NCBI GenBank assembly: GCA_004295015.1
Contig: SHNE01000022.1
Span: forward strand, 62,001-126,000
Source of the DNA: Bacteroidota bacterium
GTDB taxonomy: Bacteria; Bacteroidota; Bacteroidia; AKYH767-A; 2013-40CM-41-45
Length of the DNA: 64,000 bases
Direction: 5' to 3'
Both the position numbers and the translations under genes were made by a program. Shown piece by piece: positions 37,425 to 47,776 of the stretch. Numbering within the stretch: position 1 is the stretch's first letter; each line of letters starts with the position of its first letter. The notes below the pieces were generated by a model. The model worked only from the letters and a program-made list of their open reading frames with translations. It was not told the DNA's origin and ran no database searches.

Positions 37425-37937
37425 ATGAAATTATTTCGACGGCGATTCAAAGGTTTTTATGCCTTCATTTTATTTATTTGCTTCACAAGTATTGCTCCGG
37501 CACAGATCGGCCATGAGCGTAGTTATCATGCTCAACTCTATGAAATATTGAATCATGGTGATGCGATTCGGATTGAAAGCCGGATCAATGACATGAAAGA
37601 TATTCCGTCGAAAGATACCATGGCCTATATTGGGGCATTGAGAATGAAACTGGCGGGCATACTTGGCTCACCGCTTCAAAAACTCAGCACTTTTAAAGAA
37701 GGGAAGAAATCACTGGAGAAGGCAATAAGCATGGATTCAATCAATGCGGAGTATCGCTTTCTTCGCCTGATCATTCAGGAAAATGCTCCCGGAATTTTAG
37801 CCTATAATCATAATTTGGAAGAGGATAAAATGTATATAATCCAAAAGTTTCCAAAGCTGAATGAATTCTTGAAAAGTGAAATAAGAAAATATGCGAGTAC
37901 TTCTAAAGTGTTGACACTTGCTAATCTGAATGAATAA
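37425..37937 (+). CDS. Small secreted protein of unknown function at the head of the Dar locus
   Basis: A 170-residue protein with a signal peptide (MKLFRRRFKGFYAFILFICF, cleaved after APAQ). The rest is alpha-helical, with IESRINDMKDIPSKDTMAYIGAL (shortened: RINDMKDIPSKDTMAY) and GKKSLEKAISMDSINAEYRF, similar to a TPR-like pair of helices. No enzymatic motif is seen. It overlaps the DarA gene by up to eight bases and is probably part of the same transcript. A periplasmic helper role is only a guess. Confidence 0.75.
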   Translation: MKLFRRRFKGFYAFILFICFTSIAPAQIGHERSYHAQLYEILNHGDAIRIESRINDMKDIPSKDTMAYIGALRMKLAGILGSPLQKLSTFKEGKKSLEKAISMDSINAEYRFLRLIIQENAPGILAYNHNLEEDKMYIIQKFPKLNEFLKSEIRKYASTSKVLTLANLNE

Positions 37938-38838
37938 TTTTATGCCTGATAAAAAAGTTCTGATTGTACATTATTCTCAGTCTGGTCAACTTACTGAGAT
38001 TGTAGATAATTTCGCTGCAGGATTTAGTGCTGCTGCTGTGGAGAAAATCAAGGTGCGCATGCAAAAAGAATTTGATTTTCCATGGACGAACGAGCGATTT
38101 TTTGATGCCATGCCGGAGAGTGTTTTAGGAATTCCTTCCGCATTAGATTCATTTCAACCGAAAGAGGAGTCGTACGACTTGATAATATTCGCTTATCAAC
38201 CTTGGTTTTTATCACCCAGCATTCCTGCCACTTCCATTTTAGCGAATGAAGAATTCAGAAAGAGATTGAAGGATACTCCAATTGTCACCATCATTGGTGC
38301 ACGTAATATGTGGTTGAACTCCCAGGAAAAGGTAAAGAAGATTTTGACGGACTGTGGCGCCCATTTGGTTGGCAATATTGCTTTGACCGACAAGAACAAT
38401 AACCTCGTAAGTGCGGTGACCATTTTGCATTGGATGTTGAGCGGTAGAAAAGATTCTTACCTTGGAATATTTCCTAAACCCGGCATTGATGATGATTTGA
38501 TAAGTGGAATGGATAAATTTGGCAAAATGGTTAATGAGTCACTTCATAATAATACATGGGAGTCACTTCAGAAGAATCTTGTGAAGGAAGGTGCAGTAGA
38601 AGTAAAGTCTAATTTGATGTTTATCGAAGCCCGTGCAGGAAAGCTGTTTTCTATATGGGCAAACCTCATCATCAAAAAGAAAAATCGTCGTCTTTGGCTC
38701 ATATTCTACAAGTACTATCTGTTCATTGCTCTTTTTGTGATTGCACCAATTGTTTTGACGGTTTATATGCTTATTTTTAAGCCCTTTCTTGTAGCATCCA
38801 TCCGGAAGAGAAAAAACTACTACCTGGGCTTACAATAA
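37930..38838 (+). CDS. darA: DarA-like dialkylresorcinol-condensing enzyme
   Basis: A 302-residue protein of the DarA type, which joins two beta-keto acyl chains in dialkylresorcinol and flexirubin pathways with DarB. It has a flavodoxin-like start (VLIVHYSQSGQLTEIVDNF) and YDLIIFAYQPWFLSPS, IVTIIGARNMW in the middle. The end has one or two membrane helices (about 255-290, with FIALFVIAPIVLTVYMLIF), so it is probably membrane-bound. The ATG at 37930 overlaps the upstream gene; the ATG at 37942 (MPDKKV) would avoid that and is about as likely. DarB follows 11 bases later. Confidence 0.85.
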   Translation: MNNFMPDKKVLIVHYSQSGQLTEIVDNFAAGFSAAAVEKIKVRMQKEFDFPWTNERFFDAMPESVLGIPSALDSFQPKEESYDLIIFAYQPWFLSPSIPATSILANEEFRKRLKDTPIVTIIGARNMWLNSQEKVKKILTDCGAHLVGNIALTDKNNNLVSAVTILHWMLSGRKDSYLGIFPKPGIDDDLISGMDKFGKMVNESLHNNTWESLQKNLVKEGAVEVKSNLMFIEARAGKLFSIWANLIIKKKNRRLWLIFYKYYLFIALFVIAPIVLTVYMLIFKPFLVASIRKRKNYYLGLQ

Positions 38839-38849
38839 TAATTAGTTAA

Positions 38850-39998
38850 ATGTCTTTAAATCAAGTTTATATAGTTCGAACTTCGCATTTTCTGCCGAAC
38901 GAACCTATCTCTAATGATGAGATGGAAGATTATTTGGGCCTCATTCATGGGAAGCCAAGCAAATCGAGGCGAATTGTGTTGAGAAACAACGGAATAAAGC
39001 GCAGGTTTTATGCTCTTAACCGTAAAGGTCAGGGAACGCACACCAATTCTCAAATGGCTGCGCTTGCTGTGCAGGGTCTTTTTAGCGATCGGCCTTCAGA
39101 AATGAAGGATCTTCAGTTAATCACCTGTGGTACTTCTACACCCGATCAGTTTTTGCCTTCACATGCTTCAATGGTTCATGGCTGGTTGCCTCAATCCGGA
39201 AATGCGGAAGTGGTTTCTCCATCGGGTGCTTGTTGCGCAGGTATGCATGCCTTGAAGTATGCCTATATGGCCATTAAATCCGGTGATGTAAGTTCTGCTG
39301 TATCCACAGGTTCAGAAAGGGCATCAAGAATTTTAAGGTCGGATGTTTTTGCGATTGAAGAACAAAATTCTGAATTGCTCGAAGCCAATCCGATAACAAG
39401 TTTTGAAAAAGATTTTTTACGTTGGATGTTGTCCGACGGAGCAGGTGCTTTTTTATTGTCTGACAAAAAGAACGACGACGGAATCAGCCTGAAAATAGAA
39501 TGGCTTGAAGGTGTTTCATTTGCCAATGATGTTGAAACCTGCATGTACATGGCCGGTGATAAATTGGATAATGGTAGCTTGAAAAGTTATATGGATTATT
39601 CTCCTGCCGAGATCATGACCAATGCGATTCTCAGCATGAAGCAGGATGTAAAATTACTCAGTCAGCATATCGTTTCCCTTGGCTTTGATAAGATGAAAGT
39701 GATTCTGGACAAGCACGGAATTACGGCCGATGACATTAATTATTTTTTACCTCATATGTCCAGTGAGTTTTTTAGAACCAAAATTCTGGATAACATGCTA
39801 AAGAATGGTTTTAATATCCCTGAGGAAAGATGGTTCAGCAACCTTAGCCAGGTTGGAAACGTGGGTGCAGGATCGATTTATCTGATGATCGATGAACTCT
39901 TCAAAAGCAAGCGCCTGAAAAGGGGCGATCGCATTTTAATGGCCGTGCCTGAAAGCGCGCGTTTCTCCTATATGTTTGGGCTTTTAACTGTCTGTTAA
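38850..39998 (+). CDS. darB: DarB-like ketosynthase III
   Basis: A 382-residue FabH-type condensing enzyme. The active-site cysteine is most likely C129 in SPSGACCAGMHAL; C128 is adjacent. H302 (FLPHMSSEFF) and N337 (VGNVGAGS) complete the triad. The start has YIVRTSHFLPNEPISNDEMEDYLG, split here, with FLPNEPISNDEM typical of DarB. With DarA it should condense an acyl-ACP and a beta-ketoacyl chain to a cyclohexanedione precursor of a resorcinol. The next gene begins one base after its stop. Confidence 0.9.
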   Translation: MSLNQVYIVRTSHFLPNEPISNDEMEDYLGLIHGKPSKSRRIVLRNNGIKRRFYALNRKGQGTHTNSQMAALAVQGLFSDRPSEMKDLQLITCGTSTPDQFLPSHASMVHGWLPQSGNAEVVSPSGACCAGMHALKYAYMAIKSGDVSSAVSTGSERASRILRSDVFAIEEQNSELLEANPITSFEKDFLRWMLSDGAGAFLLSDKKNDDGISLKIEWLEGVSFANDVETCMYMAGDKLDNGSLKSYMDYSPAEIMTNAILSMKQDVKLLSQHIVSLGFDKMKVILDKHGITADDINYFLPHMSSEFFRTKILDNMLKNGFNIPEERWFSNLSQVGNVGAGSIYLMIDELFKSKRLKRGDRILMAVPESARFSYMFGLLTVC

Positions 39999-39999
39999 G

Positions 40000-40407
40000 A
40001 TGGAAAAGAAAAACGTACCTCAGGATTTTAGCAAACTCGAGAATTTTACAAGAGAGGTATGTTACGCCGTCGATGAAAACGGAAATTATGTTACAGAACT
40101 CAGCACAGGATGGGATGTTAAAACAACGGCCTTAGACGTGGCATGGTCTGATATCGAGGCAAGAGTTAATGAGGCACGAAAGCAGGTTCTGGAAGGGAAA
40201 GCCAGTCCGGTTCTATTCTTTATGGAATTAAGATTGATGGATATCGGCATCGTAGCTGCCTATACAGGTTTTTGGAAATGGAGCATCAAACGCCACATGA
40301 CAGCGACCGGATTTAAAAAGCTATCCGAAAAGAAATTAAAGAAATACGCAGAAGCATTTAATGTAACTGTTGACGAGTTAAAAACAATGCAGGTTCATGA
40401 AAATTGA
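40000..40407 (+). CDS. Conserved-looking small protein in the Dar locus, function unknown
   Basis: A 135-residue cytoplasmic-looking protein. It has a beta-rich part (EVCYAVDENGNYVTELSTGW, shortened) and a helical end (KLSEKKLKKYAEAFNVTVDEL) that resembles the tail of an Xre-type helix-turn-helix, though no full helix-turn-helix is present. It lies one base after darB and overlaps the BtrH-like gene by 11 bases, so it is translated together with both. No activity can be inferred. Confidence 0.72.
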   Translation: MEKKNVPQDFSKLENFTREVCYAVDENGNYVTELSTGWDVKTTALDVAWSDIEARVNEARKQVLEGKASPVLFFMELRLMDIGIVAAYTGFWKWSIKRHMTATGFKKLSEKKLKKYAEAFNVTVDELKTMQVHEN

Positions 40408-41410
40408 TTTTGAACACGTACAAGCCGCGCATTGTGAAAATGGCGTAACGAAAAACCTGTTGCGATTTAATGGCGTCGATCAAATCACAGAGCCACTGGC
40501 CTTTGGTATTGGCTCAGGATTGTTTTTCATATACATTCCTCTTCTGAAAATAAATAACGGTCCTGCATTTGCTTTTCGTACCATGCCGGGAAATATTTTT
40601 AAAAGGACCTGTAAGTCCCTTGGAATTCCTGTCGTCAGGAAAAAATTCAGCTCCAGAGAGAAAGCAGAGAAATTTCTTGAAGAAAGACTCGCTGAAGGAA
40701 AACCGGTTGGTTGTCAGGTTGGGGTATACTATTTGAGTTATTTCCCCAAAGAATACCGCTTTCATTTTAACGCACACAATCTTGTTGTCTTTGGCAGGGA
40801 AGATGATAATTACCTGATCAGTGATCCGGTGATGGAAACAACGACATCCTTGAGCAAGTATGAACTTGAACGTGTTCGTTTTGCTAAAGGGGCTCTTGCG
40901 CCTCGCGGACAATTATACTATCCAAAATCAAATGTGTCTGTTAGTCGGGAACAGATTCAGTCGGGAATTAAAACAGGTATTCGCAGAAACATTCGCGATA
41001 TGTTATATATCCCCGGAAATTTTGCCGGCGTGAATGGCATTAAATTCACCGGAAAGAAAATTACTAAATGGAGAGATAAGCTCGGTGAACAAAAAGCCGG
41101 AATGTATCTGGCACAGCTTGTTCGTATGCAGGAAGAAATAGGTACCGGCGGAGGGGGATTCCGTTTTATTTATGGCGCCTTTCTTCAAGAGGCTCATGCT
41201 TTTATTCCAAATGATAAGTTACTGGAAATCTCAACACAGTTTACAAAGGCGGGTGACTTATGGCGTTCTGCTGCCGTGCAAGCTGCCGGAATTTATAAAG
41301 GCCGTTTGCAAACACAGGAAGATTTCAATGACATGGGTGAATTTCTTTTTCAAATAGCAGATCTGGAGAAACAAGCCTTCACTGCTTTGTCGAAAATAAA
41401 ATGGCAGTAG
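40397..41410 (+). CDS. BtrH N-terminal domain protein, putative acyltransferase
   Basis: A 337-residue protein whose N-terminal half resembles BtrH, the enzyme that moves an acyl group from an acyl carrier protein to an aminoglycoside in butirosin synthesis. The papain-like fold of that family needs a cysteine and a histidine: here C13 (AAHCENG) and H127 (FNAHNLVVFG), with D143 (LISDPV) as a possible third residue. The C-terminal half (about 180-337) is helical. In this locus it could transfer an ACP-bound acyl or aryl chain to an alcohol, for example the resorcinol. It overlaps both neighbours (11 and 10 bases). Confidence 0.8.
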   Translation: MKIDFEHVQAAHCENGVTKNLLRFNGVDQITEPLAFGIGSGLFFIYIPLLKINNGPAFAFRTMPGNIFKRTCKSLGIPVVRKKFSSREKAEKFLEERLAEGKPVGCQVGVYYLSYFPKEYRFHFNAHNLVVFGREDDNYLISDPVMETTTSLSKYELERVRFAKGALAPRGQLYYPKSNVSVSREQIQSGIKTGIRRNIRDMLYIPGNFAGVNGIKFTGKKITKWRDKLGEQKAGMYLAQLVRMQEEIGTGGGGFRFIYGAFLQEAHAFIPNDKLLEISTQFTKAGDLWRSAAVQAAGIYKGRLQTQEDFNDMGEFLFQIADLEKQAFTALSKIKWQ

Positions 41411-42156
41411 AGGCAGAGTCTGCATTAAAGCTTGATAAACTTAGCTTTCAGTATAAAGGAAGTCCGGCTCCCTCTATAAAGGACTTACACCTGGAAGTAA
41501 GAAAAGGCGAACGTTTTGGTTTACTTGGACCCAACGGAGCAGGGAAAACTACTTTGATGCACTTGCTTTGTGGTTTACTATTGCCCGGGTCAGGTTCCAT
41601 TAAGCTTTTCGACACTGATTTATCCGAAAGTAAAATTTCACACAGAAAACGATTTGGTTTTGTGCCGCAGGATTTTTCTTTTTATCCTGAACTCAGCCCG
41701 GTAGAAAATTTGAATTTTTTCGGTGCTTGGTACGGTTTAAAACAGGATAGGATAATGAAACGTTCCAAGGAATTGCTTCATATTTTGGGATTGACAGAAG
41801 TAAAAGACAAAGCAGTAAAGACTTTTTCCGGTGGGATGAAACGCAGAGTAAACCTCGCCATCGGTGTAATACACAAGCCGCAAATACTTTTTTTGGATGA
41901 ACCCACGGTTGGAGTGGACGTCCAGACTCGCAATGCCATCATTGCCTATCTAAAGCAATTGAATCGCGATGGCATTACTTTATTTTATACCTCTCATCAA
42001 ATGAAGGAAGCCGAAGAGCTTTGTGAGAGAATTGCATTGATAGATGAAGGGAAGATTGTTGTTTCAGGTTCTATTTTTCAATTGTTGAACGATAATAAAG
42101 AACAGGATCTTGAAAAATTGTTTTTAAAATTGACAGGTAAAGATTTCCGGGACTGA
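41401..42156 (+). CDS. ABC transporter ATPase of the Dar locus
   Basis: A 251-residue ATP-binding subunit. Walker A is GPNGAGKT (43-50), signature FSGGMKRRV, Walker B ILFLDEPTVGVD and switch histidine in YTSHQMKEAE. It overlaps the BtrH-like gene by 10 bases and the permease by one (TGATG), so all three are coupled. The family (ABC-2) exports lipids, polysaccharides or drugs. Export of the pathway product, or its insertion in the outer membrane, is the natural inference. Confidence 0.92.
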   Translation: MAVEAESALKLDKLSFQYKGSPAPSIKDLHLEVRKGERFGLLGPNGAGKTTLMHLLCGLLLPGSGSIKLFDTDLSESKISHRKRFGFVPQDFSFYPELSPVENLNFFGAWYGLKQDRIMKRSKELLHILGLTEVKDKAVKTFSGGMKRRVNLAIGVIHKPQILFLDEPTVGVDVQTRNAIIAYLKQLNRDGITLFYTSHQMKEAEELCERIALIDEGKIVVSGSIFQLLNDNKEQDLEKLFLKLTGKDFRD

Positions 42157-43433
42157 TGTACAAGTTATATGCCACTTTACGTAAAGATTTGTTATTGCTC
42201 CTTAGAGATAAGGTAGGGATTACCTTTATTTTTATCATGCCTGTTATTCTTGTACTGATAATTACAAGTATACAGAACAGTGCTTTCGATATTGTAAACA
42301 ATAATAAAGTTCCGGTACTCATTTCGAACCAGGATAATGGGGAAGCAGCTGTACAGTTTTTAGATGCACTGGATAAAATTGGTTTGTTTGAACTTCACTT
42401 GCTTCGGGATTCAGTTAATCCTGTTGATCTCGCAGCTCGAATGCATCAGGAGGATGCATTGCTTGCCATTACTATTCCCATTGGTTTCAGCGAAAGAGTT
42501 TCTAAAAGAGCGGTGATTACTGCAAATAAAGCATTTCAGATTCTTGAAACACCGGAAAGTAAGTCAACTCAGCCTTTAGTTTCCGACACTGTTATTCTTT
42601 ATTATCATCCCGTACTCCAGGACAATTACCGATTGAATATTCAAAATGGCTTGCATAGTGCACTGAAGATGGTGGAAACTAAGCAGATTTTGAAAGTCGT
42701 TTATCAGAGTCTGAATGAAGATGCAAATGTTCAGCAGGTTGATGAGGATATCTTCAAAAGCGGAATTGATGTATTGGAAGTTCCTGTATCCAGAGGAGGA
42801 ATTAAAACTATTCCAAATGCCACCCAGCATAACATACCTGCATGGACAATCTTTGCCATGTTTTTCATTGTGATTTCCCTTGGCAGCAGTCTTGTTAAGG
42901 AAAAACTGAGCGGCAGTCACCTTCGCTTAAAAACACTGCCGACAAATTATCTGATTTCTCTTGTCTCAAAACTCATTTTGTATACAGGCGTATGTCTCGG
43001 ACAGGTATTAGTAATCTTCTCACTCGGAGTTTGGCTTTTTCCGCATATAGGACTGCCGGCTCTCAATCTACCTCAGGATCTCTTTGGTTTATTTCTTGTT
43101 TCCCTGATTAGTGCCTTATGTGCCGTGAGCTATGCCATCTGTATTGGTGTATATGCAAGAACGCAGGAGCAGGCCAATGGATTCGGTGCTGTTTCCATTG
43201 TAATTCTTGCCGCCATTGGTGGCATTTTGGTTCCCGCTTTCGCTATGCCGGAGGCTTTTCGTTCATTCATGGCGATTTCTCCGCTGCATTGGAGTCTCGA
43301 ATCCTACTATGGTTTGTTTCTTGAAGGCGGAAAACTATCCGATGTTTGGGGAAACCTCTTACCTTTGCTGGCAATCACCTTTATATTGCAAATTCTCGCT
43401 TTCGCGGGATTAAAAAAGAATAATTTAATTTGA
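42156..43433 (+). CDS. ABC-2-type transporter permease of the Dar locus
   Basis: A 425-residue membrane subunit with one N-terminal helix (about 20-42), a large extracytoplasmic domain (about 45-225) and five further helices (about 232-250, 275-300, 310-335, 345-370, 400-420). This is the ABC2_membrane_3 layout of exporters such as YhhJ. Partner of the preceding ATPase. Its length and the big external domain are typical. Confidence 0.9.
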   Translation: MYKLYATLRKDLLLLLRDKVGITFIFIMPVILVLIITSIQNSAFDIVNNNKVPVLISNQDNGEAAVQFLDALDKIGLFELHLLRDSVNPVDLAARMHQEDALLAITIPIGFSERVSKRAVITANKAFQILETPESKSTQPLVSDTVILYYHPVLQDNYRLNIQNGLHSALKMVETKQILKVVYQSLNEDANVQQVDEDIFKSGIDVLEVPVSRGGIKTIPNATQHNIPAWTIFAMFFIVISLGSSLVKEKLSGSHLRLKTLPTNYLISLVSKLILYTGVCLGQVLVIFSLGVWLFPHIGLPALNLPQDLFGLFLVSLISALCAVSYAICIGVYARTQEQANGFGAVSIVILAAIGGILVPAFAMPEAFRSFMAISPLHWSLESYYGLFLEGGKLSDVWGNLLPLLAITFILQILAFAGLKKNNLI

Positions 43434-43443
43434 TTAGCATTTT

Positions 43444-43707
43444 ATGGAAAACACAGTATTAAAAGAAGAGTTGAAGGCGAATATCGTGAAGTTCTTAAAT
43501 CTTATTTCTGTAAATCCTTCTGATATAAAAGATGATGAACCTTTATTTGGCGAAGGCCTCGGTCTTGATTCCATTGATGCAATCGAGCTCATCGTTTTGT
43601 TGGATCGTGTGTATGGAATAAAAATTACTGATCCCAAAGAAGGTCGTAAAATATTTATTGATATAAATACGATGGTAGATTATATCGAAAAAAATCGCAC
43701 CAAGTAA
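43444..43707 (+). CDS. Acyl carrier protein of the Dar locus
   Basis: An 87-residue acyl carrier protein. The phosphopantetheine attachment serine is S43 in GLGLDSIDAIEL. The flanking acidic helix is as in type II polyketide and aryl-polyene carriers. It is the only carrier in the window and sits between the exporter and two ketosynthase genes (gap of five bases), so it is dedicated to this pathway rather than the housekeeping AcpP. Confidence 0.93.
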   Translation: MENTVLKEELKANIVKFLNLISVNPSDIKDDEPLFGEGLGLDSIDAIELIVLLDRVYGIKITDPKEGRKIFIDINTMVDYIEKNRTK

Positions 43708-43712
43708 TTTTC

Positions 43713-44900
43713 ATGACAAAAGTCTTTGTCACCGGCATGGGACTGATCACCTCTCTCGGAGATTCAGTTGTAGAAAACCGCAATTCATTGTGTTCCGGTA
43801 AATCGGGTATCACCTCACTCGAACTTTTTAAATCGAAGTACGCCGATTCCTTACCCTTTGCTGAAATTAAAATAGCGACAGAGAAGCTCAAGGAAATTCT
43901 CTCTGTTGACTCAGCTGATTTAACAAGGACAAGCCTTCTGGCATTACACGCATGCAAACAAGCCATTCTCGATAGCGGCCTGGATTCCTCTCAGGTAAAA
44001 TCAATGCGCACGGCTATTGTTGGGGCGAATACGGTGGGAGGGATGTGTCTCACGGATGAATTATATAAAGACTCAAACAGCAAAGAGAAAGGCTCTCCTT
44101 TTCTCGCTTCTTATGATGCAGGTTCTGTTACGCTTTTTTTACAAAAACATTTTGGTTTGAAAGGGATTGCGAATACAATTAATACAGCCTGCTCTTCATC
44201 GGCTAATGTCATCATGTATGGATCACGTTTAATTAAAAACGGACTCGCCGATCGTGTTATTGTTGGAGGAGTTGATAGTCTGGCTAAGTTTACCATCAAT
44301 GGTTTTAATTCCTTGCACATTTTATCGAAAGAAGCTTGCAGGCCTTTTGATAAAAGTCGCCAAGGCCTGAATCTTGGTGAAGGCGCCGGTTTTTTGATTC
44401 TTGAAAAGGAAAGTTTAGTTCAGAATAGGAATGTTTATGCAGAAGTGAGTGGTTACTGTAATGCAAATGATGCATTCCATCCATCCTCCTTATCTGAACA
44501 AGGCGATGGACCTTTCAATGCCATGAAAGGAGCTCTCGATCTTGCCGGGATTTCTACAAAAGATATCGATTATATAAATGCTCATGGAACAGCCACTGAA
44601 AATAATGATCAGGTGGAAAGTGTTGCATTGCTTCGATTGTTTGGAACAGTTCCGCCTTTCAGTTCAACAAAGTCAAATACGGGACATACTTTAGGTGCGG
44701 CCGGAGCTGTTGAGGCGATTTTCTCTATATTAAGTTTGTATCATTCAGAGTTATATCCGCATCTTAGATTTACTGATCCGATTCCTGAAACTAAACTTAT
44801 TCCTGTGCAGGAATATGAAAAAAGGGATATGAAACATGTTATGTCAAACTCCTTTGGCTTCGGTGGTAATTGCACATCATTGGTATTTTCAAAAGTCTGA
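43713..44900 (+). CDS. Ketosynthase, FabF type (KS-alpha)
   Basis: A 395-residue elongating ketosynthase with an intact triad: C160 (NTACSSSANV), H291 (NAHGTATENND) and H325 (SNTGHTLGAAG). GVDSLAKFTINGFNSL (about 186-201) and CRPFDKSRQGLNLGEGAG are family segments. It is followed after three bases by a shortened, catalytically degenerate homologue. The pair therefore resembles KS/chain-length-factor pairs of type II polyketide and aryl-polyene systems. It should extend the ACP-bound chain. Confidence 0.92.
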   Translation: MTKVFVTGMGLITSLGDSVVENRNSLCSGKSGITSLELFKSKYADSLPFAEIKIATEKLKEILSVDSADLTRTSLLALHACKQAILDSGLDSSQVKSMRTAIVGANTVGGMCLTDELYKDSNSKEKGSPFLASYDAGSVTLFLQKHFGLKGIANTINTACSSSANVIMYGSRLIKNGLADRVIVGGVDSLAKFTINGFNSLHILSKEACRPFDKSRQGLNLGEGAGFLILEKESLVQNRNVYAEVSGYCNANDAFHPSSLSEQGDGPFNAMKGALDLAGISTKDIDYINAHGTATENNDQVESVALLRLFGTVPPFSSTKSNTGHTLGAAGAVEAIFSILSLYHSELYPHLRFTDPIPETKLIPVQEYEKRDMKHVMSNSFGFGGNCTSLVFSKV

Positions 44901-44903
44901 AAG

Positions 44904-45944
44904 ATGCTATACATACATAAAGCAAGCTGCATATCTCCTCAGAACACTTTCAACAATGTTGATCTCAGCATTTTAATGCCTTCTTTTGAGAATATGTTGC
45001 GTGCTATCGAGCCGGGTTATGAAGGTATTCCACCCGGACAATTGCGACGTATGGGTAAAGCAGTCCGATTGGGCGTTGGTGCCGCATTGCCCTTGCTTAA
45101 AGATTCTCCTCAACTTGCCGGAATTATTTTGGGAACTGCCAACGGAGGTATGGAGGATTGCATTAAATTTCTGAATCAGATTATTGACTACGACGAAGGA
45201 ACTTTAACACCAACAAATTTTGTTCAAAGTACCACCAATGCCATTGCTTCTCAGATTGCATTTATGTCAGGAAACAAAGGCTATAATATTACTCATGTAC
45301 ACAGAGGTTTGTCTTTTGAGAATGCTTTGCAGGACGCAATGATGCATGCTATAGAAGACCCGACAAAGACTTACCTCCTCGGTGGTGTCGATGAAATTTC
45401 TGATTATAATTTTAATATTGATTTTTTATTGGGATGTTTTAAAGAGAAATTTACTTCCAATGATGCTTTATTCAATGCGAACACGCCCGGCACGATTGCA
45501 GGTGAAGGCGCTGCAATGTTTCTTGTTGGCGGACAAAAAGAGAACTCTTTAGCTTGCATGCACGCACTTTCGGTATTGACTTCAACTGATGAGAGAGAAC
45601 TAAAGGAAAGTTTTGCAGAGTTCATTTACTCTAATAATATTAACTTGGAAGAGGTTGATGTATTTATTAGCGGAGAAAATGGAGACAGACGTCAAGACAA
45701 TTTTAACACAGAAATCGAACTAGCCATGCCTCCGGAAATCGGAATAGTTCGCTATAAGCATCTAACAGGGGAGTATCCAAGTGCCTCAGCTTTTTCGCTT
45801 TGGTTGGCATGTCATCTCGCTCAGGGAAACACAGCCCCGGCTCATATGGTTAAAAAAGTAGGTGCTAAGAAAACCTGCAGGAATATTTTAGTTTATAATT
45901 GTTATCAGGGATTGCAGCATAGTTTTATGCATGTAACAAGCTGA
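44904..45944 (+). CDS. Degenerate ketosynthase-like protein (chain-length-factor-like, KS-beta)
   Basis: A 346-residue thiolase-fold protein, shorter than its neighbour. At the place of the cysteine motif it has NITHVHRGLSFENAL (128-142), so the catalytic cysteine is absent. The first histidine region reads ISGENGDRRQDN and the second KHLTGEYPSAS, so both histidines are lost as well. Retained fold motifs are GIILGTANGGMED and GGVDEISDYN. It cannot condense chains on its own; a heterodimer with KS-alpha that sets chain length is the likely role, as in aryl-polyene ApeC. It ends the + strand run. Confidence 0.85.
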   Translation: MLYIHKASCISPQNTFNNVDLSILMPSFENMLRAIEPGYEGIPPGQLRRMGKAVRLGVGAALPLLKDSPQLAGIILGTANGGMEDCIKFLNQIIDYDEGTLTPTNFVQSTTNAIASQIAFMSGNKGYNITHVHRGLSFENALQDAMMHAIEDPTKTYLLGGVDEISDYNFNIDFLLGCFKEKFTSNDALFNANTPGTIAGEGAAMFLVGGQKENSLACMHALSVLTSTDERELKESFAEFIYSNNINLEEVDVFISGENGDRRQDNFNTEIELAMPPEIGIVRYKHLTGEYPSASAFSLWLACHLAQGNTAPAHMVKKVGAKKTCRNILVYNCYQGLQHSFMHVTS

Positions 45945-46067: not shown

Positions 46068-46943
46068 TTATCCAATCCGCAAACTAGTCATAGCAATCGA
46101 CCCCATTACACTTTTATCATTGAAAAAGTTAATTTTTTCATCCTTGCCTTGTAAACCGAGGGTGTAGAGGAGGGGTAAATAGTGTTCCGGAGTTGGTATA
46201 GAAAGTTGGAATGCGCTACCAAGTGATTTGTAATCGATGAGTTTTCGGTGCTCGCGTTTATTGATTAGGTTTTTCATTTCGTTTCTGGCCTCTTCAGCCC
46301 AATCAAAACCGGAGTCTTGTTTGCTCCAGTCAACTTTTCCAAGGTTGTGTACCATATTTCCGCTGCCTAGGATGAGAATTCCTTTCTTACGCAGAGAGGA
46401 TAATTCCTTTGCAAGTTCATAATGATAGCTTGCAGATTGCGTTCTGTCAATGCTCAATTGGATAATCGGAATGTTGGCTTCGGGATAAAGATGTTTAACT
46501 ACGCTCCAACAACCATGGTCAAGTCCCCAGCCATCATCGAGTCCTATTTCTGTTTGCTGAACTATTTTTTTTGTCTCCATTGCCAGCTCAGGGCTTCCGG
46601 GGGCGGGATATTGTGCTGCAAACAATGCTGCCGGACATCCGCCAAAGTCGTGGATTGTTCTGGGTTGTTTCATTGCCGTCACAAAAGTTCCTCTCGTTTC
46701 CCAGTGTGCTGAGATACATAAAATGGCAGCAGGAAGGGGCAGGTTTTTAATAGATTCCTGCCAGCCTCTGGTGAAAGTATTCTGCTCAATAGCATTCATC
46801 GGACTTCCATGCCCGTAAAACAAAACCGGCATCTTTTCAGTCGTTTTGAATGTCGAACTGCTTTTTTGAAATTCTTGTAAGTTCATAGCTGCACCTGTTA
46901 AGGGAAGGAGTAAAAGGGATTGTAGAAAGCTCTTCCTGTCCAT
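46068..46943 (-). CDS. DODA-type extradiol dioxygenase family protein (YgiD-like)
   Basis: A 291-residue protein of the LigB/DODA superfamily. The zinc or iron ligands expected from E. coli YgiD are present: H45 (YGHGSPMNA), H80 (ISAHWETRG), a histidine in GSGNMVHNLG and one in TPEHYLPLLY. The first 20 residues form a hydrophobic leader (MDRKSFLQSLLLLPLTGAAM), so it may be exported, unlike E. coli YgiD. It cleaves catechol-type rings such as L-DOPA in some species. It converges on the Dar locus, but I see no direct proof of a link. Confidence 0.88.
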   Translation of the reverse strand: MDRKSFLQSLLLLPLTGAAMNLQEFQKSSSTFKTTEKMPVLFYGHGSPMNAIEQNTFTRGWQESIKNLPLPAAILCISAHWETRGTFVTAMKQPRTIHDFGGCPAALFAAQYPAPGSPELAMETKKIVQQTEIGLDDGWGLDHGCWSVVKHLYPEANIPIIQLSIDRTQSASYHYELAKELSSLRKKGILILGSGNMVHNLGKVDWSKQDSGFDWAEEARNEMKNLINKREHRKLIDYKSLGSAFQLSIPTPEHYLPLLYTLGLQGKDEKINFFNDKSVMGSIAMTSLRIG

Positions 46944-47210: not shown

Positions 47211-47555
47211 CTATCCACTAATTTCAATGCAGGCTAGTTCTTTATAAGCCGGGTTAGAAATAAAATCCATTATTATTTCGCTTTTAGAAATTAGTAATTC
47301 AGCAATCTCCTTAGTGCGATAATTCCCCATTCTCAACCAAATAATTTTTGGTGGATGGCCGAATAAATTTGCAATATCAAAAAAGTCTGAATCAAAAGTC
47401 ACTATAGAAAATCTGTTCTCCTTAGCATAGTTCCAAATTTGCATATCGGAAAAATTTTCTAAGCCAAGAACTTTTACCTGTCCTGATTCCGGAAAAGATT
47501 TTTCAAGCCTCTTTATAATTCGAAAGGAAATATTTTGGTCGAAAAGGAGTTTCAT
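47211..47555 (-). CDS. DUF5615 PIN-like protein (probable toxin)
   Basis: A 114-residue protein of the DUF5615 PIN-like family. Conserved acidic residues are D6 (LLFDQNIS) and a DSDFFD cluster (about 75-80, FDSDFFDIANLFG). The middle has FSDMQIWNYAKENRFSIVTFD (shortened: DMQIWNYAKEN), characteristic of the family. It begins at the last base of the upstream DUF433 gene, the usual order of antitoxin then toxin. A ribonuclease role is inferred from the fold. Confidence 0.87.
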   Translation of the reverse strand: MKLLFDQNISFRIIKRLEKSFPESGQVKVLGLENFSDMQIWNYAKENRFSIVTFDSDFFDIANLFGHPPKIIWLRMGNYRTKEIAELLISKSEIIMDFISNPAYKELACIEISG

Positions 47556-47776
47556 TAAGCTACCCTGGTTCTATGCTCTCTGTCAGCTGCATAGGCTAAA
47601 CAGGCCTGAATGTCATTCTCGGTCAACTCGGAATAATCTTCGAGAATCTCCTTGGTTGTCATTCCGCTAGCCAGCCAGCTAAGCACATCATAAACTGAAA
47701 TTCGCGTATTGAGAATGCAGGGCTTACCAAATCGTACTTCTGGATTAATAACTATAATTTTTCTATAGTCTGTCAT
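47555..47776 (-). CDS. DUF433 protein (probable antitoxin)
   Basis: A 73-residue protein of the DUF433 (Vap-type antitoxin) family, with NPEVRFGKPCILNTRISVYDVLSWLASGMTTKEILEDYSEL as its core (key parts: GKPCILNTRISVYDVL and SGMTTKEIL). It has a winged-helix-like end. It is one base away from the DUF5615 gene and forms a two-gene toxin-antitoxin-like module. A TATATTTG box lies 16 bases upstream of the ATG. Confidence 0.9.
   Translation of the reverse strand: MTDYRKIIVINPEVRFGKPCILNTRISVYDVLSWLASGMTTKEILEDYSELTENDIQACLAYAADREHRTRVA

Follow-up and report, generated by a model that had tools for sequence, protein, structure and literature searches.

The main finding of this study is that the ten-gene operon at 37425-45944 is, with little doubt, the dar half of a complete pathway to a flexirubin-type pigment, yellow-orange in colour, and that the polyene-forming flx cluster of this pathway lies elsewhere in the same genome. 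The operon was found in a window of 64,000 nucleotides (the whole stretch of DNA that was analysed, G000:C6:62001-126000), which belongs to a 3.86-Mb draft assembly of 56 contigs that is 99.98% complete. The apparent incompleteness of the operon reflects where the genes lie and not the biochemistry: the pathway is split in an ordinary way and adds one more case to an arrangement that has already been described.

The dar operon

The operon consists of ten co-directional plus-strand ORFs, all intact, with spacings of -8, 11, 1, -11, -10, -1, 10, 5 and 3 bases in order, four of which are overlaps. The genes, and what each assignment rests on, are as follows.

37425..37937, + strand: conserved leader gene encoding 170 aa with a likely signal peptide (60 of 80 named loci have a homologue)
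37930..38838, + strand: DarA, dialkylresorcinol condensing enzyme/aromatase, flavodoxin-like fold (darB-adjacent gene of relatives; predicted fold)
38850..39998, + strand: DarB, KAS-III-like ketosynthase/cyclase (NF053539)
40000..40407, + strand: DarG, flexirubin/dialkylresorcinol protein (NF053545)
40397..41410, + strand: DarH, BtrH-like acyltransferase, candidate ester synthase (NF053550; conserved residues; model)
41401..42156, + strand: ABC-2 exporter ATPase (ABC_tran)
42156..43433, + strand: ABC-2 exporter permease (ABC2_membrane_3)
43444..43707, + strand: acyl carrier protein (ACP), darC in Azoarcus (PP-binding; LDSI motif at residue 41)
43713..44900, + strand: FabF-like ketosynthase, Cys-His-His active site (ketoacyl-synt N and C; motifs TACSS, AHGTA and NTGHT)
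44904..45944, + strand: chain-length-factor (CLF)-like protein, a degenerate ketosynthase (Ketoacyl-synt_2; HVHRG motif, active-site Cys apparently replaced)

Both the compact layout given in the preliminary description (ten plus-strand genes, gaps of 11 bases or less, overlaps) and its family assignments (DarA, DarB, a BtrH-like protein, an ABC-2 pair, an ACP and a ketosynthase pair) hold, the latter by profile searches and, for DarA, by comparison with relatives and by fold. DarB scores 606 bits against NF053539 (cut-off 550), with C128, H302 and N337 invariant and C129 nearly invariant in 12 sequences, and DarG scores 191 bits against NF053545 (cut-off 170). DarA has no match in Pfam or NCBIfam, hence no cut-off is applicable, and it aligns lengthwise with the darB-adjacent gene of relatives at 33-50% identity. 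Its predicted structure is flavodoxin/WrbA-like, with FMN flavoproteins and WrbA as matches in a fold search and a helical C-terminal part, while a sequence search of solved structures returned weak flavoprotein matches only. The leader gene has no family match in profile searches; its homologues are, as a rule, immediately upstream of darA.

The preliminary description listed an aromatase, DarC, as missing, which is a naming error. In the published dar nomenclature (PMC3949708, Table 1), the name darA belongs to the aromatase and darB to the cyclase, and darC stands for the ACP; the aromatase is therefore DarA itself, and it is in the operon. With DarB, DarA next to DarB, and the ACP (DarC) at 43444-43707 all present, the resorcinol half is complete. 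The other reported absences were borne out beside the operon: no tyrosine ammonia-lyase, ketoreductase, dehydratase or AMP-ligase gene was seen adjoining it, and the flanking genes tested are unrelated to it. Convergent with the operon end is a minus-strand gene (46068-46943) for a LigB-type aromatic ring-opening dioxygenase-like protein, probably unrelated to the operon. Just 3' of the operon, on the minus strand at 47211-47776, is an adjacent DUF433/DUF5615 gene pair whose ends share one base, arranged like a putative toxin-antitoxin module. At 40.2% G+C, the operon differs little from the window as a whole (39.7%), so composition shows no sign of recent import. A scan for sigma-70-type promoters found fewer sites than in shuffles, and the terminator-like sites of the operon fall within genes.

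The polyene cluster on a second contig

Searches of the genome for ketosynthases, aromatic lyases and AMP-ligases each gave matches at one common place on another contig, C2, where a continuous plus-strand gene run with polyene-type genes extends over C2:51581-76490. This run is the complete flexirubin polyene cluster of the same genome. It begins with a tyrosine ammonia-lyase, a ketoreductase, a ketosynthase, an ACP and an LPLAT gene, followed by a small protein without Pfam match (alignable with genes of dehydratase size that adjoin darB in relatives), an extra gene, a thioesterase, a ketosynthase and a methyltransferase. Then come an FAD halogenase-like protein, a conserved gene, an ACP/ketosynthase/CLF set, a polysaccharide deacetylase and LolA; a second conserved gene, a FabA-like dehydratase, a GT2 and an MMPL-acyltransferase-methyltransferase fusion; and last a CrtI-like oxidase, an AAT/C45 protein and an AMP-ligase. 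In total, the cluster holds three ketosynthases, one CLF, two ACPs, dehydratases, and exporter and acyltransferase genes. The lyase is FlxA (NF053541 equivalog, 829.7 bits, cut-off 700), and the AMP-ligase gives a PF00501 match at C2:75432-76064, with coumarate as its predicted substrate. FlxA, the AMP/CoA ligase, and the ketosynthase/CLF with ketoreductase and dehydratase that a flexirubin pathway needs are thus all on C2, and the gene content agrees with that of published flx clusters (PMC3992019).

Of the two readings offered in the preliminary description, a cluster split on the chromosome is the one that stands: the lyase, ketoreductase/dehydratase and AMP-ligase genes that it suggested looking for near other ACP and ketosynthase genes were all found together on C2. 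A minimal pathway taking its chains from elsewhere is not supported, since the genome has this polyene cluster. DarA, DarB and DarH occur as one copy each, so that there is no complete cluster elsewhere with a darA and darB of its own, and a second dar copy is rejected given the completeness of the assembly. The two loci are on separate contigs of a draft (C6, size 175,253; C2, size 236,132), which places them at least about 119 kb apart. The ACP, ketosynthase and CLF-like genes of the operon are distinct from their C2 counterparts, with 30-51% identity.

Together, the two loci would form one pathway. DarB and DarA, whose activities, like those of FlxA and FlxY, have been established in Chitinophaga pinensis (PMC3992019), would condense two fatty-acid-derived chains and aromatise them to a 2,5-dialkylresorcinol. 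FlxA and the AMP-ligase would supply an activated 4-coumaroyl starter for the flx ketosynthase/CLF, ketoreductase and dehydratase to lengthen into an ACP-bound aryl polyene. At its Cys-His-Asp site, DarH would then esterify a resorcinol hydroxyl with this polyene, and the pigment would reach the outer membrane through the ABC pair together with the products of the flx export genes. The final product, its export route and the role of the operon's own ACP, ketosynthase and CLF-like protein are aspects of this scheme that we infer.

DarH as a candidate for coupling the two halves

DarH scores 464 bits against NF053550 (cut-off 300), and C13, H127 and D143 are invariant in an alignment. A sequence search of solved structures gave no useful relative, designed helical proteins only. 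Along almost the entire protein, the DarH model (pLDDT 91) finds structural matches in CtaG, the AziU2-U3 complex and CcbD (Foldseek E 3e-10 to 1e-7), with VIA-align Z scores of 22-25 for this group and 14 for the next, the match to CtaG having a Z of 24.9 and an rmsd of 3.3 over 295 aligned residues. The titles of the structure entries mention CcbD in complex with a PCP (carrier-protein) domain, as well as the CtaG variants C11A, H128A and D144N; judged by sequence position, C13, H127 and D143 of DarH appear to match CtaG C11, H128 and D144. DarH thus combines the fold and the Cys-His-Asp residues of BtrH-type, carrier-protein-dependent acyltransferases.

DarH also tracks DarB in other genomes. 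In a set of 100 related genomes, with DarH and DarB counted over their cut-offs and FlxA-like lyases at E up to 1e-100, DarH is in 18 and DarB in exactly the same 18. The lyase is in 17 of these 18 genomes versus two of the other 82 (17 with both, one with DarH only, two with the lyase only, 80 with neither; Fisher p 4.5e-16, a value that ignores shared ancestry). The single congener examined, G001, has none of the three, and the trait is therefore accessory. Below the DarB cut-off, we observed DarB-like synthases at G052:C15:120692-121792, G071:C103:10580-11680 and G064:C8:2631-3731, where the open frames are longer (about 616-635 aa); G052 and G071 are without DarH, so their synthases look like a different StlD/DarB-related system. 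A distant DarH-like gene broken by stop codons is at G086:C99:5275-6217 (L035, L036, L061).

Because its fold matches carrier-protein-dependent acyltransferases and C13, H127 and D143 are invariant, DarH is the leading candidate for the enzyme that joins polyene and resorcinol as an ester, and we consider it somewhat probable that it moves an ACP-bound aryl polyene to the resorcinol hydroxyl much as CtaG and CcbD use carrier-bound acyls. The earlier suggestion that the BtrH-like protein couples the two halves is consistent with this and gains support from the fold; the reaction itself is one that we infer. In the open-access literature, we found no paper assigning DarH experimentally, and the coupling enzyme proposed for flexirubin is FlxW, not a BtrH-like protein (PMC3992019). 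It is conceivable, if on the doubtful side, that the two loci cooperate while FlxW, whose proposed mode of coupling is ligase-like (PMC3992019), or another flx enzyme, such as the AAT/C45 protein or the LPLAT among the acyltransferases encoded on C2, makes the ester, DarH having another acyl-transfer role. However, both the fold of DarH and its exact co-occurrence with DarB argue for DarH, and together mark it out as a candidate coupling enzyme that can be tested directly. NCBIfam already names DarH an acyltransferase, so that only the reaction would be new if it is indeed the ester synthase.

Distribution of the split and comparison with known systems

The lyase and DarH are on the same contig in four relatives (G032, G061, G062 and G070) and on separate contigs in the other 13 genomes, all drafts, including the one studied here. 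The dar genes are inside the flx cluster in several relatives (L044, L045, L055). Among the 80 named loci, 58 span at least 17 kb; four or more polyene-type genes lie nearby in 23 of these, and no more than one in 30. The order of the operon is conserved: the identical ten genes recur in 25 other loci, with hosts including Terrimonas ferruginea (strain DSM 30193), Flavitalea and Reichenbachiella agariperforans, genes 1-9 in 11 loci (for example in Dyadobacter) and genes 1-8 in 19 (for example in Mucilaginibacter). In one locus from the Cyclobacteriaceae (L120), the dar exporter ATPase and permease each match two separate stretches, which suggests a duplication or a frameshift.

We regard it as very unlikely that the operon is self-sufficient, that its own ACP, ketosynthase and CLF-like protein provide a short polyketide or fatty acyl chain, and that a dialkylresorcinol esterified with this chain is made and exported, the polyene cluster not being involved. 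That these three genes are distinct from those on C2 would fit such a pathway, as would G094, which has DarB and DarH and in which no FlxA-like lyase was detected; but the lyase accompanies DarH in the other 17 of the 18 genomes with DarH, including this one, the operon is without a ketoreductase or dehydratase, and a published split pathway yields flexirubin (PMC3992019). That the operon is instead the remnant of a degraded flexirubin cluster with a working copy elsewhere, a reading with a negligible chance and with the absence of polyene genes from the window as the one point in its favour, is rejected because the ten genes are intact, in an order conserved in other loci, and because DarA, DarB and DarH are single copy, with no second dar set in the assembly.

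A dar half paired with a distant flx half is also what is found in C. pinensis, where darB/darA, at the dar locus with Cpin_6850/6851, are distant from flx genes Cpin_1853-1877 that include, as here, a tyrosine ammonia-lyase, CoA-ligase, ketosynthase, ketoreductase, dehydratase, LolA and export genes (PMC3992019), a comparison of gene content and not of gene order in DSM 2588. The 37-kb flexirubin cluster of Flavobacterium johnsoniae has the same two halves, but joined in one cluster (PMC3992019). Across the wider set, the two halves are commonly split, so annotation based on windows or clusters will frequently recover just one half of a flexirubin pathway. The order within the operon matches that in the arcuflavin dar cluster of Azoarcus sp. 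BH72 (azo0283-0293), which runs darA, darB, a small conserved gene, a BtrH-like gene, ABC ATPase, permease, ACP (darC), ketosynthase and an extra gene (PMC3949708). Unlike the operon described here, that cluster has two additional genes, of prevent-host-death and PilT type, and its polyene is xanthomonadin-like, with an XanB2-type starter instead of tyrosine (PMC3949708). The split was therefore already known from C. pinensis (PMC3992019), and the content of the operon from Azoarcus (PMC3949708).
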